Under the pieces are notes generated by a model. The model saw only the letters and a program-made list of their open reading frames with translations, was not told where the DNA came from and made no database searches. 35,080 bases of DNA, from IMG/VR virus record IMGVR_UViG_3300006802_000258, positions 1-35,080 of that record; one strand, written 5' to 3'. The position numbers and the translations under genes are program-made. This document shows, piece by piece, positions 2,867 through 31,310 of the stretch (position 1 is the stretch's first letter; every line of letters begins with the position of its first letter). This DNA is from a virus.

Positions 2867-3193
2867 ATGACCGAAAAGAAAAAGAAAAGGTCGACCGCAG
2901 ACTTCTATAAGTCGAACCCAGAGGCCTACAAGAAAAAGCTCGCTTACGACAAAAAGCGCAATGCTCGTCCTGATCGCAAAAAATATCGGGCTGAGCTGGC
3001 CAAGGAACGTCGTGCTCGCGGAATCATGGGCAAGGGCGGCCCGGATGTCAGCCACACGAAGGATGGCAAGTTCAAGTTGGAGAATCCCTCAAAGAACCGT
3101 GCTCGCAACGGCCACGGCAAGAACACCCGTCTGGCTAATGGCGGAACTGCCCGCAAGTCCAAGCCCGGTTACAAGCCTCGGAAGAAGAAATGA
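2867..3193 (+). CDS. Lysine/arginine-rich basic protein
   Basis: The 108-residue product is extremely basic (MTEKKKKRSTADFYKSNPEA at the start, GYKPRKKK at the end). A central helix is rich in K, R, A and E. A SHTKDGKFKLENPSKNRARNG segment suggests a defined fold. It has no membrane segment. Its stop overlaps the start of the next basic gene (ATGA), so the two are co-translated. A packaged DNA-binding or condensing protein is a natural guess; no family is firmly recognised. Confidence 0.8.
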   Translation: MTEKKKKRSTADFYKSNPEAYKKKLAYDKKRNARPDRKKYRAELAKERRARGIMGKGGPDVSHTKDGKFKLENPSKNRARNGHGKNTRLANGGTARKSKPGYKPRKKK

Positions 3194-3588
3194 GCACCGC
3201 AAAAAAGACAAAACCTGAGCTTTGGAGTCGCAAAGTTGCAGCCGCCAAGGCTAAGTTTGGTAAGTGGTCTGCTCGTGCAGCACAGTGGGCAACCGCTGAG
3301 TACAAGAAGGCTGGAGGAGGCTATAGTGGGGCAAAGAAGTCTAGTAATTCCTTAAGCAAGTGGACTTCACAAAAATGGCGTACTCGCGACGGCAAGAAAG
3401 CTGAGCGTACCGACAGCAAAGGCCGCAAGGTAACTGCTCGTTATTTACCAGACAGTGCCTGGAAGTCCCTCAGCAAGTCAGAGGCAAAGGCTACGGATGC
3501 GAAGAAGAGAGCCGGCAGCAAGAAGGGCAAGGGAACCGTGGCAAATACTCGGAAAGCTAAGGGAGCGGGGCGGCGTGCTCGGAGGTAA
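3190..3588 (+). CDS. Basic protein resembling DUF5872
   Basis: The 132-residue product shows ELWSRKVAAAKAKFGKWSAR, then QWATAEYKKAGGGYSG, NSLSKWTSQKWRTRDGK and ARYLPDSAWKSLSKSEAKAT. This pattern matches my recollection of DUF5872 proteins of marine phages and large DNA viruses. It is strongly basic, with a disordered RAGSKKGKG-type tail. It lies between two other basic genes in one translationally coupled run. The biochemical role is unknown; nucleic-acid binding is likely from its charge. Confidence 0.82.
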   Translation: MSTAKKTKPELWSRKVAAAKAKFGKWSARAAQWATAEYKKAGGGYSGAKKSSNSLSKWTSQKWRTRDGKKAERTDSKGRKVTARYLPDSAWKSLSKSEAKATDAKKRAGSKKGKGTVANTRKAKGAGRRARR

Positions 3589-3590
3589 CC

Positions 3591-3896
3591 ATGGCTGCTA
3601 AAAAGAAGTCTTCAAAGAAAGATCCTAGGCTGGCTCGTGCCGGGGTGTCTGGTTATAACAGGCCAAAGCGCACTCCCAATCATCCCAAGAAGTCCCACGT
3701 TGTGGTCGCGAAGGAAGGCGACAAGATTAAGACCATTAGGTTTGGGGAGCAAGGGGCTAAAACTGCTGGTAAACCCAAAGCAGGAGAATCGACAAGAATG
3801 AAGAAGAAGCGGGCAAGCTTCAAGGCAAGGCACGCTAGGAACATTGCCAAGGGAAAAATGTCGGCAGCCTACTGGGCGAACCGCGAGAAGTGGTAG
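3591..3896 (+). CDS. Basic protein resembling DUF6321
   Basis: The 101-residue product has an HPKKSHVVVAKEGDKIKTIR strand region followed by FGEQGAKTAGKPKAGES. It ends in a helical SFKARHARNIAKGKMSAAYW segment. I recall this pattern from a short domain (DUF6321) shared by phages and eukaryotic large DNA viruses. A GGAGG site precedes the ATG. It is the third gene of the basic block. The function is unknown. Confidence 0.82.
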   Translation: MAAKKKSSKKDPRLARAGVSGYNRPKRTPNHPKKSHVVVAKEGDKIKTIRFGEQGAKTAGKPKAGESTRMKKKRASFKARHARNIAKGKMSAAYWANREKW

Positions 3897-3914
3897 AGAA
3901 AGCGAAATGGTGAC

Positions 3915-4082
3915 ATGACCACCAACAAGCAAACCTGGACTCTTGGACTGCTTGGCGTCCTGATGTGTTCTCATCTAGCTTTTCTTGGTTTCCGTTCTGA
4001 CCAACCCGATCAGTTTCAGCGAGCAGCTGAGACCTATGTTACAATTTTGTTAGCATTAATGACCCCACTACCTGGAAAATAA
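3915..4082 (+). CDS. Small two-segment membrane protein, holin candidate
   Basis: This 55-residue frame has two hydrophobic stretches, at about residues 8-25 (WTLGLLGVLMCSHLAFLGF) and 41-52 (YVTILLALMTPL), with a short polar link. Small two-helix proteins near an endolysin are common holins. Family membership cannot be shown from sequence reading alone. The start at 3915 follows a weak GGTGAC site. The gene lies inside the basic-protein block, between the 101- and 52-residue products. Confidence 0.55.
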   Translation: MTTNKQTWTLGLLGVLMCSHLAFLGFRSDQPDQFQRAAETYVTILLALMTPLPGK

Positions 4083-4090
4083 GGAAGACT

Positions 4091-4249
4091 ATGGCGTTAC
4101 CACTATCTACGGCGCAAGCCACTAAAAAGATGCCTGGACACTACGGAAAATCTAAAGCTGAAAAGAAGAAGTCTTCATCAAAAAAGATGCCACCCGCCTT
4201 TCTCGCTAACATGAAAAAGAAAAAATCTGCGGGTAAAAAGAAAAAATGA
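4091..4249 (+). CDS. Very small lysine-rich basic protein
   Basis: The 52-residue product contains three lysine clusters, such as SKAEKKKSSSKKMPP and a KKKKSAGKKKK end. A TTACAAT box at about 4038 could serve as its -10 element. It ends five bases before a clean terminator, closing the basic block. Its composition suggests nucleic-acid binding; no family is recognised. Confidence 0.7.
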   Translation: MALPLSTAQATKKMPGHYGKSKAEKKKSSSKKMPPAFLANMKKKKSAGKKKK

Positions 4250-4253
4250 TACA

Positions 4254-4276
4254 CTGGGGCATACGCCCCTTTTTTT
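4254..4276 (+). terminator. Rho-independent terminator
   Basis: GGGGC (4256-4260) pairs perfectly with GCCCC (4265-4269) around ATAC, followed by seven Ts. It ends the plus-strand basic-protein transcript. Confidence 0.85.
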
Positions 4277-4336
4277 GTGCACTACCAAGTTTGCTGGAGA
4301 GACAGGTTGCGCCATGTTGCTAATTTTAGCTTCATC

Positions 4337-4510
4337 ATGACGTACATCTGTTTCGAACGCGGATGGCTTGTTACCGGCGCTCTGTGCACTCTAGTCGGTG
4401 AAAGTCTTTTGATTCCTTCTGCGATCAAGCATAAGTCCTGGAGTAGCTGGATTGTTGCAGGAGTCTTCATTGTTATGAGCCTGAACACTTTAGCTCATAA
4501 CCTGCTTTAA
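4337..4510 (+). CDS. Small two-pass membrane protein
   Basis: The 57-residue product starting MTYICFERGWLVTGALC has two hydrophobic helices, at about residues 9-27 and 38-55. The frame is open back to a GTG at 4277, but that codon abuts the terminator and lacks a ribosome site. An eight-codon frame at 4313 (MLLILASS) ends over the ATG at 4337 and may couple it. The gene converges with the minus-strand island and overlaps its last codons. The function is unknown. Confidence 0.5.
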   Translation: MTYICFERGWLVTGALCTLVGESLLIPSAIKHKSWSSWIVAGVFIVMSLNTLAHNLL

Positions 4511-5186: not shown

Positions 5187-6299
5187 ATGTCTAACCAATC
5201 CTTCTGGCAAGAGTTCTACGATCTTGGCAAGGCAGCTGGGGCCAAGTTTCCTGAACTGGTTGCAGCGCAGGCCGCATTGGAGTCAGGTTGGGGTAAGCAC
5301 CTGTCTGGCAAGAACAATTACTTCGGCATCAAGGGGTCTCCTGGCACTGTGGTCAAAACTCAGGAATGGGTTGTAAATAAATTCATGACCGTCGAGGATG
5401 AGTTCAAAGACTTTGATTCGTCACTAGAATGCGTACGACATCTTGTTGATCGCTGGTACAAGGATTGGCGAGGCTACGAAGGTGTCAACAGGGCCGACAA
5501 CCGTGACGATGCCGCTCAGTTGCTCCAGGACGAGGGGTATGCCACTGATCCTGTATACCCTGAACTCTTGATCGGCCTAATGGACGACAATCAGCCCGAG
5601 GAAGATTACTTTCTGGAGCGAGCTGCTGCTTGTTATGCCGCTGAGCCCCACGAGATAGCCGCCTGGAGGGAGTTAGAGCATCTGTTGGATGGAGATATCC
5701 TAGAGGCGTTTAAGAAGGCTTACAGAGGCATTAGGGAGGAGGTTCCTGTTGTGGAGTCCGACGGAATCAAAGTGCTTGACGCTCCTTACTTCTATCAGCG
5801 AGACAGCAAGACAGGACAAGGCGAAAGAATGTGCTTTTCCAGCGCAATGGCCATGGCTCTGGACTACTTAAGGCCTGAGGTGATTGAGGGTGACGATGAC
5901 TGGTATCTGTCCATTGTCAACTACTTCGGTGACAGCACTTCCAGCACGGCGCAGGTCAAGGCGGCTAGGTCTCTTGGATTTGACGCTAGCTTCCATTCTG
6001 ACGGCAGGCAGGAGGATTTGGTGAGTCTGCTCGACAATGGTACCCCAGTTCCGATTGGTGTTCTGCACAAGGGTTCTGTGTCTCATCCAACAGGTGGCGG
6101 ACATTGGGTCACCCTCGTGGGTCACGACAAGACCCACTTCATCGTCCATGATCCGTTCGGTGAAATGGATCTAATCGGTGGTGGCTACCTTGCAGCTGGT
6201 CCGACTGACGGCGAGTTTGTGAGATATAGCAAAGAAAATCTAATGAAACGCTGGCTGATTCAAAGTGATAACGACGGATGGTATGTTCGCGTCGCCTAA
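5187..6299 (+). CDS. Two-domain endolysin: GH73-like glucosaminidase plus C39-like peptidase
   Basis: The 370-residue protein degrades peptidoglycan. Residues 1-130 match glucosaminidase (GH73/FlgJ-like) domains: AAQAALESGWGKHLSGKNNY contains the likely catalytic Glu32, followed by FGIKG. Residues 195-345 look like a papain-fold C39-like peptidase: GERMCFSSA with Cys216, GGGHWVTLVGH with His306, and VHDPFGE with Asp322 as the third residue. The combination would cut both the glycan and a peptide bond. It has no signal peptide, so a holin is expected. The start is ATG 5187 without a clear ribosome site. A virion-associated lysin is an alternative. Confidence 0.85.
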   Translation: MSNQSFWQEFYDLGKAAGAKFPELVAAQAALESGWGKHLSGKNNYFGIKGSPGTVVKTQEWVVNKFMTVEDEFKDFDSSLECVRHLVDRWYKDWRGYEGVNRADNRDDAAQLLQDEGYATDPVYPELLIGLMDDNQPEEDYFLERAAACYAAEPHEIAAWRELEHLLDGDILEAFKKAYRGIREEVPVVESDGIKVLDAPYFYQRDSKTGQGERMCFSSAMAMALDYLRPEVIEGDDDWYLSIVNYFGDSTSSTAQVKAARSLGFDASFHSDGRQEDLVSLLDNGTPVPIGVLHKGSVSHPTGGGHWVTLVGHDKTHFIVHDPFGEMDLIGGGYLAAGPTDGEFVRYSKENLMKRWLIQSDNDGWYVRVA

Positions 6300-16659: not shown

Positions 16660-17288
16660 ATAATGACCCGTCTTCTTGGCCTGAGGCAAAGCCTCCGTAC
16701 AACCCAGGGCCGATCTGGAATTTCACCAGAGGCTACAAGGTTAACGAGGCTGGTCGGCATGAAAACGAAGAGCAGTACAGGGCGTTTCAGTTTCATTTAA
16801 ATATGAGGGGTAGCAGGAGCTTCGATGCAACTGCCGAATTCATGCAGAAGAGCCCGGAGACACTTAAGGGCTGGGCAAAGAAATACAACTGGGATAGGCG
16901 TTGTGCTGCCTATGACAAGAAGGAGATGGCGATAACCTTTAAGGAGGCCAGCAAGATAGAGCGAAAGAAACATCGTTATGCGATCGAGGAGTTTCGCCAG
17001 GCGAACGAGGACCAGGCTAGGCTAATGATGGATGTGTCTGGCGATCTGATGGGTATCATCCAGCAGCGAATTGCAGAAGCGGCGGCTACTGGTGAGAAGA
17101 TTCCGATGGGGCTTTTGTCTGGGTTGATGCGAGCTGCTGCCAACATCTCTGATGCGGGTCGACAGGCTTGGGCAACCTCTCTTGGCGTTAACGAGCTTAT
17201 GACCGTTGTTGAGCAAGAGCTCGAGGAGGTCCAAGTCGAGGTGATGGAAGATCCCGACGTTTACGAAATACCCCTAGACGAAGACTGA
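16656..17288 (+). CDS. terS: Terminase small subunit-like protein
   Basis: The 210-residue protein has a helix-turn-helix-like region (FDATAEFMQKSPETLKGWAK, then KYNWDRRCAAYDKKE) at about residues 55-90. It then has long helices fit for oligomerisation and an acidic C-terminus (EVMEDPDVYEIPLDED). Position directly before the large subunit, with a TGATG overlap, supports a DNA-recognition role in packaging. The fold assignment is by pattern and context. Confidence 0.82.
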   Translation: MNNDPSSWPEAKPPYNPGPIWNFTRGYKVNEAGRHENEEQYRAFQFHLNMRGSRSFDATAEFMQKSPETLKGWAKKYNWDRRCAAYDKKEMAITFKEASKIERKKHRYAIEEFRQANEDQARLMMDVSGDLMGIIQQRIAEAAATGEKIPMGLLSGLMRAAANISDAGRQAWATSLGVNELMTVVEQELEEVQVEVMEDPDVYEIPLDED

Positions 17289-27869: not shown

Positions 27870-29450
27870 ATGCACGGAATCAATCATCCAGTGAACGACC
27901 CAAATCTGGTCTCGTATCACCGCCCGGAGCTGGTTAGGCTCCTGCCTCAACTGGAGCAAGCCTACGACTGCTGGACCCTCCTCAATTCCGAGGGATTGGG
28001 TGCGGCCAAAAGTAAATATCTTCACCGTGAACCGGCCGAGCCCATGGAGGCCTACAACGCCCGCCTGGCTCGCTCTACATACACTCCGATCTATCGAGAC
28101 AGTATTCGCTCTTATGCTGGCCTGCTTGGGCGCTTCCATTTGATCGACGCGCCCTCGAGCCTTGAGTTAAGTAAGAACAATGTAGATCTTCAGGGATCTA
28201 GTATTCAATCGTTCTTGACTCAAGTCGATGAGATGGCTCTTCGCGATGGCGGAGCATACGTCATGGTTGACATGATGCCTGATTCAGGCAGCGACAACTT
28301 TTTCGATCAGCAGCGTGACGGGCGTCATCCGTACTTCATCTCAATCAAGAGGGCTGATGTTATTAACTGGGAGGTCAGCTATGATCGCGGCATCGAGAGT
28401 GTTTCTCGGGTAACTGTTCGCCAGCTTCGCAGCATGCCCGATACTGAAGGGCGCTATGGCAACAGGGTTGAGCCGGTCTATTACGTGCTAACTCCCGGAA
28501 TGGTGGAGATGTACAGGGTGGTCAAGTCAGACGTAAGTCGCTGGACCAATGTAAAGTTTGGCGAAGTCAACACATCTCTACCCATCGTGCCCATTGTTTG
28601 GTACGGGGCAACTACCAGCCGTTTTGCCCAGGGCGACCTGCCCATGGACGGTCTAGCAGACCTGAGCATTCAGCATTTTCAGATGCGATCCGATCTTAGC
28701 GAATTGCTCCATAAGTGCGCCATGCCTGTCCCAGTGCGCAAGGGTGCACCTATTGGACCCAATGGTCAGCCCGCACCGCTGGTACTTGGTCCCAATACAG
28801 CCGTAGACCTTCCTGCAGAAGGTGGTGACTTCTCTTTTGCAGAGCCTTCTGGGAAGAGTCTTGAGCGTCATCAGGATGAAATCAAGCACGTTGAAGAGCT
28901 CATGGACCGCAGCTCTTTGAACTTTCTTTATGGAGCAAACGTCAAGACTGCGACCGAGGCATCTCTTCGGGCCTCTCAGGTTGCTTCCAGTGTTTCTGCT
29001 CTAATCCGAAACAAGGCCAGCATGTTTGGGATGCTCATGCGTCTGTGGGCATGGTACGCGGGTGAACAGTCTGACATCACAATCGAGTCAGGTATTGCCA
29101 TTAACGACTCTCTGATCAATAAGCCGCTAGGGGCTTCTGAGATGGCACAGCTTGTTAACTTGTTTAACAATGACCTTCTCTCCAAGAAGACCGTGCTCGA
29201 TGAGCTCCAGCGTGGTGGTGTCCTTGACCCCGACCTAATGGTTCAAGAGGAGATGAATAGAATCGAGGAAGACAAAGAGGAGGAGCACGACCTGGGTGAA
29301 CTGGAGGCTCGAATGAGACTCGACCAGGACATCGAGCGAGCACGAGAGCTCCAAGATAGTGCATCGAGCCAGCAGGAAAGAGCTGAAGGCCAGTCTCAAC
29401 AGGAACAGGAGCAGGCTAATGTCAAGAAGGCCGCCGAGCAGGCCAAGTAA
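27870..29450 (+). CDS. Portal protein (DUF4055-type)
   Basis: The 526-residue product resembles DUF4055 phage portals. An N-terminal region ARSTYTPIYRDSIRSYAGLL is followed by DEMALRDGGAYVMVDMM, SYDRGIESVSRVTVRQLRSM, and a helical stem with YGANVKTATEASLRASQVAS. A Q/E-rich coiled tail (REL-QDSASSQQERAEGQSQ) ends it. It would form the ring through which the terminase loads DNA. It is separated from terL by 9 kb of metabolic and replication genes. A terminator follows at once, so no capsid operon continues here. Confidence 0.85.
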   Translation: MHGINHPVNDPNLVSYHRPELVRLLPQLEQAYDCWTLLNSEGLGAAKSKYLHREPAEPMEAYNARLARSTYTPIYRDSIRSYAGLLGRFHLIDAPSSLELSKNNVDLQGSSIQSFLTQVDEMALRDGGAYVMVDMMPDSGSDNFFDQQRDGRHPYFISIKRADVINWEVSYDRGIESVSRVTVRQLRSMPDTEGRYGNRVEPVYYVLTPGMVEMYRVVKSDVSRWTNVKFGEVNTSLPIVPIVWYGATTSRFAQGDLPMDGLADLSIQHFQMRSDLSELLHKCAMPVPVRKGAPIGPNGQPAPLVLGPNTAVDLPAEGGDFSFAEPSGKSLERHQDEIKHVEELMDRSSLNFLYGANVKTATEASLRASQVASSVSALIRNKASMFGMLMRLWAWYAGEQSDITIESGIAINDSLINKPLGASEMAQLVNLFNNDLLSKKTVLDELQRGGVLDPDLMVQEEMNRIEEDKEEEHDLGELEARMRLDQDIERARELQDSASSQQERAEGQSQQEQEQANVKKAAEQAK

Positions 29451-30965: not shown

Positions 30966-31310
30966 ATGAACCACCTTCGCAATTTCCTTGTCTTTTCCAT
31001 CATTGGCTGCATTTACGCCCTATTAGCTCTTCCCTCCTTCGCTCTTGACGTTCAGATGGGCTTCGACGGCAACCTCGTCTTTGAACCCTCTGAGATCACC
31101 GTTAATGCTGGTGACTCTGTCCACTTCGTCAACAACATGCTGCCACCCCACAATGTCATCGTTGAGGATCGTGCAGACCTTAGCCATGAACCCTTGGCCA
31201 TGATGCCAGGGGAGGAGTTCGACGTAGTGTTCCCCGAGGCGGGTGATTTTAATTTCTGGTGTGGTCCTCATAAAGGAGCTGGCATGACTGGAGTGGTCCA
31301 CGTACAGTAA
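30966..31310 (+). CDS. petE: Plastocyanin
   Basis: The 114-residue product is a type I copper protein that carries electrons from cytochrome b6f to photosystem I in the thylakoid lumen. Residues 1-27 form a signal peptide ending in PSFA. The copper ligands are all present: His62 (PPHN), Cys99, His102 and Met107 (CGPHKGAGM). It is slightly shorter than cellular plastocyanins. Cyanophages carry petE as an auxiliary photosynthesis gene. It stands alone between a CATACT box and a strong terminator. Other cupredoxins are less likely given the CGPHKGAGM pattern. Confidence 0.94.
   Translation: MNHLRNFLVFSIIGCIYALLALPSFALDVQMGFDGNLVFEPSEITVNAGDSVHFVNNMLPPHNVIVEDRADLSHEPLAMMPGEEFDVVFPEAGDFNFWCGPHKGAGMTGVVHVQ

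Follow-up and report, generated by a model that had tools for sequence, protein, structure and literature searches.

The virus record IMGVR_UViG_3300006802_000258 of IMG/VR (positions 1 to 35,080; the whole stretch of 35,080 nt is hereafter the window), from a marine cyanophage, carries a block of small, strongly basic proteins, one of which, P3, appears to belong to the DUF5754/Tlr6f family. Domains of the P3 type are built into portal-MuF proteins and XkdF-type prohead proteases of other tailed phages. The genes of the window add members to families that are known but functionally unexplained, and what is new here is the link of Tlr6f/DUF5754, DUF5872 and DUF6321 with the phage head. Our preferred reading, which we hold tentatively and at slightly less than even confidence, is that P3 is a head-associated module and that the stand-alone basic products are probably taken into the procapsid along with the DNA.

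A lysine-rich gene block near the lysis genes

The block is composed of five genes on the plus strand, P1 (2867-3193), P2 (3190-3588), P3 (3591-3896), P4 (3915-4082) and P5 (4091-4249). P1, P2, P3 and P5 are basic products of 108, 132, 101 and 52 residues, and the 55-residue P4 is a small membrane protein among them, all exactly as stated in the original prediction. The four basic proteins have net charges of +28, +32, +25 and +16, respectively, with pI values of 10.7-11.4, and occupy ranks 1-4 in lysine content among the 248 window ORFs of 45 residues or more; lysine makes up 33% of P5. P1-P3 all fall into PHROG families of unknown function, P1 into phrog_6437 (3e-29), P2 with its N part into phrog_17747 and its C part into phrog_14910, and P3 into phrog_7595 (2e-41). 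A PHROG search gave no family for P5.

The gaps from P1 to P5 are −4, +2, +18 and +8 nt, P1 and P2 overlapping by 4 nt, and a terminator-like hairpin (4256-4276, plus strand; GGGGC-AUAC-GCCCC-T7, by consensus match only) directly follows P5. Given this spacing and the hairpin, P1-P5 are likely carried on a single transcript. Upstream of the block, P0 (2525-2833, plus strand; 102 residues, phrog_12220, 8.7e-19) has an N-terminal transmembrane segment followed by a coiled coil. With a weak Rz-like spanin match (0.07) and a syntenic position in relatives, P0 is a possible spanin or holin partner. Downstream, the hairpin is followed by a gene for a second small membrane protein (4277-4510, plus strand; 77 residues, phrog_2318) and then by the endolysin gene (5187-6299, plus strand), which encodes a glucosaminidase and a C39-like peptidase (Pfam, 1.3e-20 and 4.4e-9; phrog_10051, 6.7e-117). 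The predicted location near lysis genes is thus borne out by the endolysin on one side and P0 on the other. The TerL gene at 17288 and the portal gene at 27870 are both distant from the basic block. Elsewhere, the window encodes a plastocyanin (PetE), an auxiliary photosynthesis gene (30966-31310; phrog_515, 1.8e-54), and two distinct RNA polymerase sigma factors in the one phage (11059-11865 and 18833-19564).

Conservation and recurrence of the block genes

The closest named relatives of the window are cyanophages S-CRES1-3, with patchy matches of about 73% DNA identity to S-CRES2 and S-CRES3. In S-CRES1, P0, P1, P2, P3, P4 and P5 occur in the same order, ~9 kb downstream of the major capsid gene; P4 is conserved there as gp99 and P5 as gp102. 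The order P0-P1-P3 is present in S-CBS2, so that P0 adjoins P1 in both phages. Syn5 has a member of the P0 family, gp47, and a P1 homologue, gp50. Comparison with S-CRES1 shows saturation at synonymous sites (pS 0.77-0.87) but low pN (0.08-0.29), which indicates that the proteins are real, constrained and under purifying selection. The P1-P3 profiles had zero matches among about 21,900 shuffled ORFs. Purifying selection, synteny and the shuffled-ORF controls together rule out chance or low-complexity ORFs.

The clustering of lysine-rich genes that drew attention to this region is a true recurring gene type: of the small ORFs lying no more than 500 bp from P1-P3, 18% encode other lysine-rich proteins, compared to 2% beyond 2 kb, a ~9-fold enrichment. 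A fixed four-gene unit of P1, P2, P3 and P5 was nonetheless ruled out, since P1 occurs mostly without P2 or P3, these being nearby in just 7 and 13 of 76 P1 loci. P2 is found near P3 at 46 of 80 P3 loci and at 35 of 79 DUF5754-type loci. A chromosomal or plasmid origin was also rejected. Plasmids held no matches, a DUF5754-type query found no match in a one-per-species genome collection, and the P3 matches in that collection (L467-L520) are metagenome-assembled or single-cell contigs, judging by their titles. They are probably phage contigs that were misbinned, and not prophages.

P3 and the DUF5754/Tlr6f family

Against PF19058 (DUF5754), P3 scores 12.9 bits, or 15.2 bits when trimmed, below the Pfam cut-off of 27.4 bits. 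The P3 profile matches all 79 of the 79 DUF5754-type loci, and hhalign aligns the P3 family with the phage DUF5754-type family end to end (99.2%, E 7.6e-20, 86 columns). Five of six scanned members of the latter family exceed the PF19058 cut-off (43-51 bits). Foldseek placed Tunisvirus V9SE36 at prob 0.99 with E 0.023, and a fold shared with giant-virus members is possible. P3 is therefore assigned as a divergent branch of DUF5754/Tlr6f by sequence, and because P3 alone lies under the cut-off, the assignment is transitive, through the phage proteins above it.

DUF5754 is the protein named Tlr6f, which almost all polinton-like viruses, many giant viruses, several virophages and some phages have conserved (PMC4642659, PMC12220804); in 2015 it was reported to have no similarity to domains of known structure or function (PMC4642659). 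Like P3, these proteins are small and single-domain, and they occur both in phages and in DNA viruses of eukaryotes (PMC4642659, PMC12220804). Unlike them, P3 has the PKRTPxHP N-part and the RH...SAAYW...KW C-part seen in the marine phage branch. In phage HMO-2011 (L217:2524-3679), the annotated 345-residue gene 68 overlaps the P3 gene, gene 69, by 176 nt in another frame, and the start of gene 68 may be misannotated.

P3-type domains fused to head proteins

In other phages, the P3-type domain is built into head proteins. In Aphanizomenon phage CL131, the 1393-residue gp12 carries Phage_portal_3 (60-419), a P3-like domain (535-604), InPase (631-752) and Mu_F (991-1103), and the ORF012 product was detected by LC-MS/MS in CsCl-purified virions (PMC6293099). 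The annotated capsid protease of ICP1, gp125, consists of an XkdF-like part and a C-terminal P3-like domain at 187-261; its gene is positioned in the head operon, flanked on one side by genes for scaffold, decoration and major head proteins and on the other by those for portal and terminase. Aeromonas phages also carry XkdF fusions, with the P3-like domain N-terminal to XkdF (4e-19) in PhAER-4, and two environmental IMG/VR contigs have this same arrangement. Unlike these fusions, P3 of the window is encoded by its own gene and has no protease, portal or MuF domain. Fusion of the P3 domain to portal-MuF and prohead protease proteins, in one case in a protein detected in virions, lends indirect support to the original prediction that the basic proteins are packaged.

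The fused copies of the domain have net charges of −1 to +9, whereas stand-alone copies range from +11 to +31, with a median of +21 (183 sequences). Since the fused domains are nearly uncharged, strong charge is not intrinsic to the P3 fold, which need not bind DNA by itself; the stand-alone versions may do so. The near neutrality of the copies in the prohead protease and the portal-MuF protein would also fit a role for P3 and P2 as head-assembly factors without a nucleic-acid function, that is, scaffold, protease or portal cofactors whose charge pairs with an acidic scaffold and not with DNA. Two gene arrangements point the same way. At one locus (L264:4656-5381), P3 and P2 domains are fused in a single 241-residue ORF, with spanin-like genes on one side and the portal gene upstream, and the fusion is followed by a 388-residue acidic scaffold-like ORF (net −48) and a major head-type gene. 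In MED4-184, the two ORFs immediately after P3 are scaffold- and capsid-like by length, composition and order. However, the charge retained by the stand-alone forms is above what docking appears to need, and we consider a purely assembly-related function somewhat unlikely.

P2, DUF5872 and DUF6321

P2 was not reported against PF19197 (DUF5872) when untrimmed; the trimmed search gave 16.5 bits (E 0.013, residues 9-99 aligned to 4-102 of 116), with the Pfam cut-off at 27.5 bits. Among the P2 relatives, 5 of 14 close members match DUF5872 (best 1.6e-5), as does L268 (1.1e-5), and the best P2-related ORF reaches 26.4 bits, still under the cut-off. P2 thus appears to be a remote DUF5872 relative. 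It differs from DUF5872 in its strongly basic tail and in that its halves, of the phrog_17747 and phrog_14910 types, are two separate, adjacent ORFs in many marine phages. The C half of P2 has remote kin (hhalign E 1e-4) in a family of small basic proteins with KWFKEDWVDVKTGKPCGRK..YPxCRP (L346:4672-4974 and 20 loci), which adjoins P1 in some phages.

DUF6321 (PF19846) was found in none of P1-P5 and nowhere in the window when all six frames were searched. An hhalign comparison of P3 with DUF6321 covered 16 columns only (E 0.013), corresponding to an (R)RKSFxAR motif; with this 16-residue motif as the sole likeness and DUF6321 absent across the window, P3 was ruled out as a DUF6321 protein. The two resemblances originally proposed therefore fared differently in profile searches. 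The one to DUF5872 persists as the remote match of P2, while the one to DUF6321 is lost and P3 is placed with DUF5754/Tlr6f instead. The broader expectation holds: two of the four fall into families that tailed phages share with large DNA viruses of eukaryotes, giant viruses of algae included, and DUF5872 is one of these families. Phycodnavirus CpV-BQ1 carries both a DUF5754 gene and a DUF5872 gene (PMC12085832).

DUF6321 proteins, although absent from the window, adjoin P2 relatives in pelagiphage Hodr and are fused to one at L224:4605-6068, where a single 487-residue ORF contains a DUF5872-like part (5e-4) and DUF6321 (1.6e-27). In the T4-like cyanophages P-HM1 (L378:3539-4240) and S-SM1 (L379:10537-12024), a DUF6321-bearing gene (T4-GC119) is located between TerS and TerL. 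The P-HM1 and P-SSM4 records place the note 'similar to Synechococcus phage S-SM1 protein' on the DUF6321 gene and on experimentally found virion proteins, not on the terminase genes, which hints that the DUF6321 protein is perhaps among those detected in virions.

P1 and a possible HNH-type module

The AlphaFold model of P1 (pLDDT 74) is composed of three helices, a beta-hairpin (61-71) and a short helix. Candidate HNH-like residues are D60-V-S-H63 ... N77, and by hhalign the P1 profile aligns with a family of small, basic, HNH-like phage proteins (77%, E 2e-5). P1 shares the pattern RRxxG..GKG-G-DVxH...NR with the small HNH-like basic proteins of phrog_4578/4590; it differs from them in a shorter loop, and the completeness of its active site is doubtful. 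These features, predicted in part from the model, are compatible with P1 being a remote, reduced HNH-type (beta-beta-alpha) module.

A stronger version would make P1 an HNH-type packaging nuclease or terminase accessory, with the other basic proteins helping genome processing, a scheme that is partly compatible with our preferred reading. The hhalign match and the helices, hairpin and short helix of the model are in its favor, as is cyanopodovirus S-CBP1, in which the P1 homologue comes immediately after the gene for the small terminase (TerS). P1 itself is not the small terminase, as the annotated TerS of S-CBP1 is the neighboring gene. Against a working nuclease, P1 has no HNH match in Pfam and no solved-structure match by PDB sequence-profile search, Foldseek or VIA-align, and only a short stretch separates its His from the last Asn, which may leave the active site incomplete. 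We judge such a nuclease or accessory role unlikely. Taken over P1-P3, no convincing solved-structure match was found by sequence, and two models gave no PDB match with Foldseek or VIA-align, which does not by itself imply a new fold.

Genome neighborhoods

Around loci chosen by similarity to P2 and P3, raw neighbor counts, which carry no random-phage background, were among the highest for the following: 34 loci for the TerL-type cluster, 32 and 12 for portal, 14 and 12 for major head and 19 for DUF6321. The order in Hodr is TerS, DUF6321, a P5-like ORF, others, P2, one ORF, TerL, one ORF and portal, the P5-like product being a 39-residue protein that resembles P5 by eye. A 51-residue basic protein recurs in Hodr and in another unrelated marine phage cluster (L219:7840-7995, L218:7816-7971); it is phrog_31838 in Hodr, and both copies have the HMDFMKxxMxxGxSFxxAHxxAMxxxGK pattern.

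Neighborhoods of a different kind bring in another explanation, in which the basic proteins are late, non-virion factors that are made from a late operon, remain unpackaged and act on the host nucleoid, ribosomes or lysis timing. The window block adjoins membrane and endolysin genes, basic genes of this type lie near lysis genes in unrelated phages as well (L132), and a PDB search gives the P3 profile a very weak match (E 0.19) to ribosomal protein L24. That match is at chance level and was treated as such. The portal and protease fusions, moreover, put the P3 domain in the head, and late expression would leave little time for host takeover. A late, non-virion role in the host seems to us improbable.

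Discussion

In our preferred reading, the basic block would comprise late genes tied to head assembly and DNA packaging. P3 would be the stand-alone copy of a small folded module, of the DUF5754/Tlr6f type, that other phages fuse to proteins of the procapsid interior or lining, and P2, of the DUF5872 type, is its usual genetic partner, fused to it in one phage. We infer that P3, together with P2, docks on the inner face of the procapsid or on the portal. The basic surfaces of the two proteins could then hold packaged DNA, so that they would be enclosed with the genome and may reach the next host cell together with it. P1 would contribute a reduced HNH-type DNA-binding module at the packaging step. 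The DNA-condensing or nucleoid-targeting function suggested in the original prediction remains a putative one, drawn from charge alone.

Several observations weigh against this head-associated role. The window block adjoins neither TerL nor portal, P1 is mostly apart from P2 and P3, and the fused P3 domains are nearly neutral. Stand-alone homologues of P1, P2, P3 or P5 had no entry in the virion proteomes examined, and in the Syn5 record gp50 is without the structural label given to gp53, gp54 and gp58. A parallel in idea is offered by A278L and A282L of PBCV-1, basic virion proteins that are packaged with DNA (PMC3281028); unlike the window proteins, these are large kinase fusions.

The fold might extend this role across virus groups. 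As a more speculative and somewhat doubtful proposal, Tlr6f/DUF5754 could be a common head-docking module of tailed phages, giant viruses, virophages and polinton-like viruses, bringing a partner protein or DNA to the capsid interior, with P2/DUF5872 and DUF6321 as additional, interchangeable modules of this toolkit that serve as cargo or bind DNA.

The head fusions are the main evidence here and a first testable clue to the role of P3-type proteins. They place Tlr6f/DUF5754 inside the heads of tailed phages, in one protein detected in virions and in one of the genetically tractable ICP1 that is annotated as a capsid protease. A question about a very widespread viral protein thereby becomes answerable by deletion and virion proteomics.
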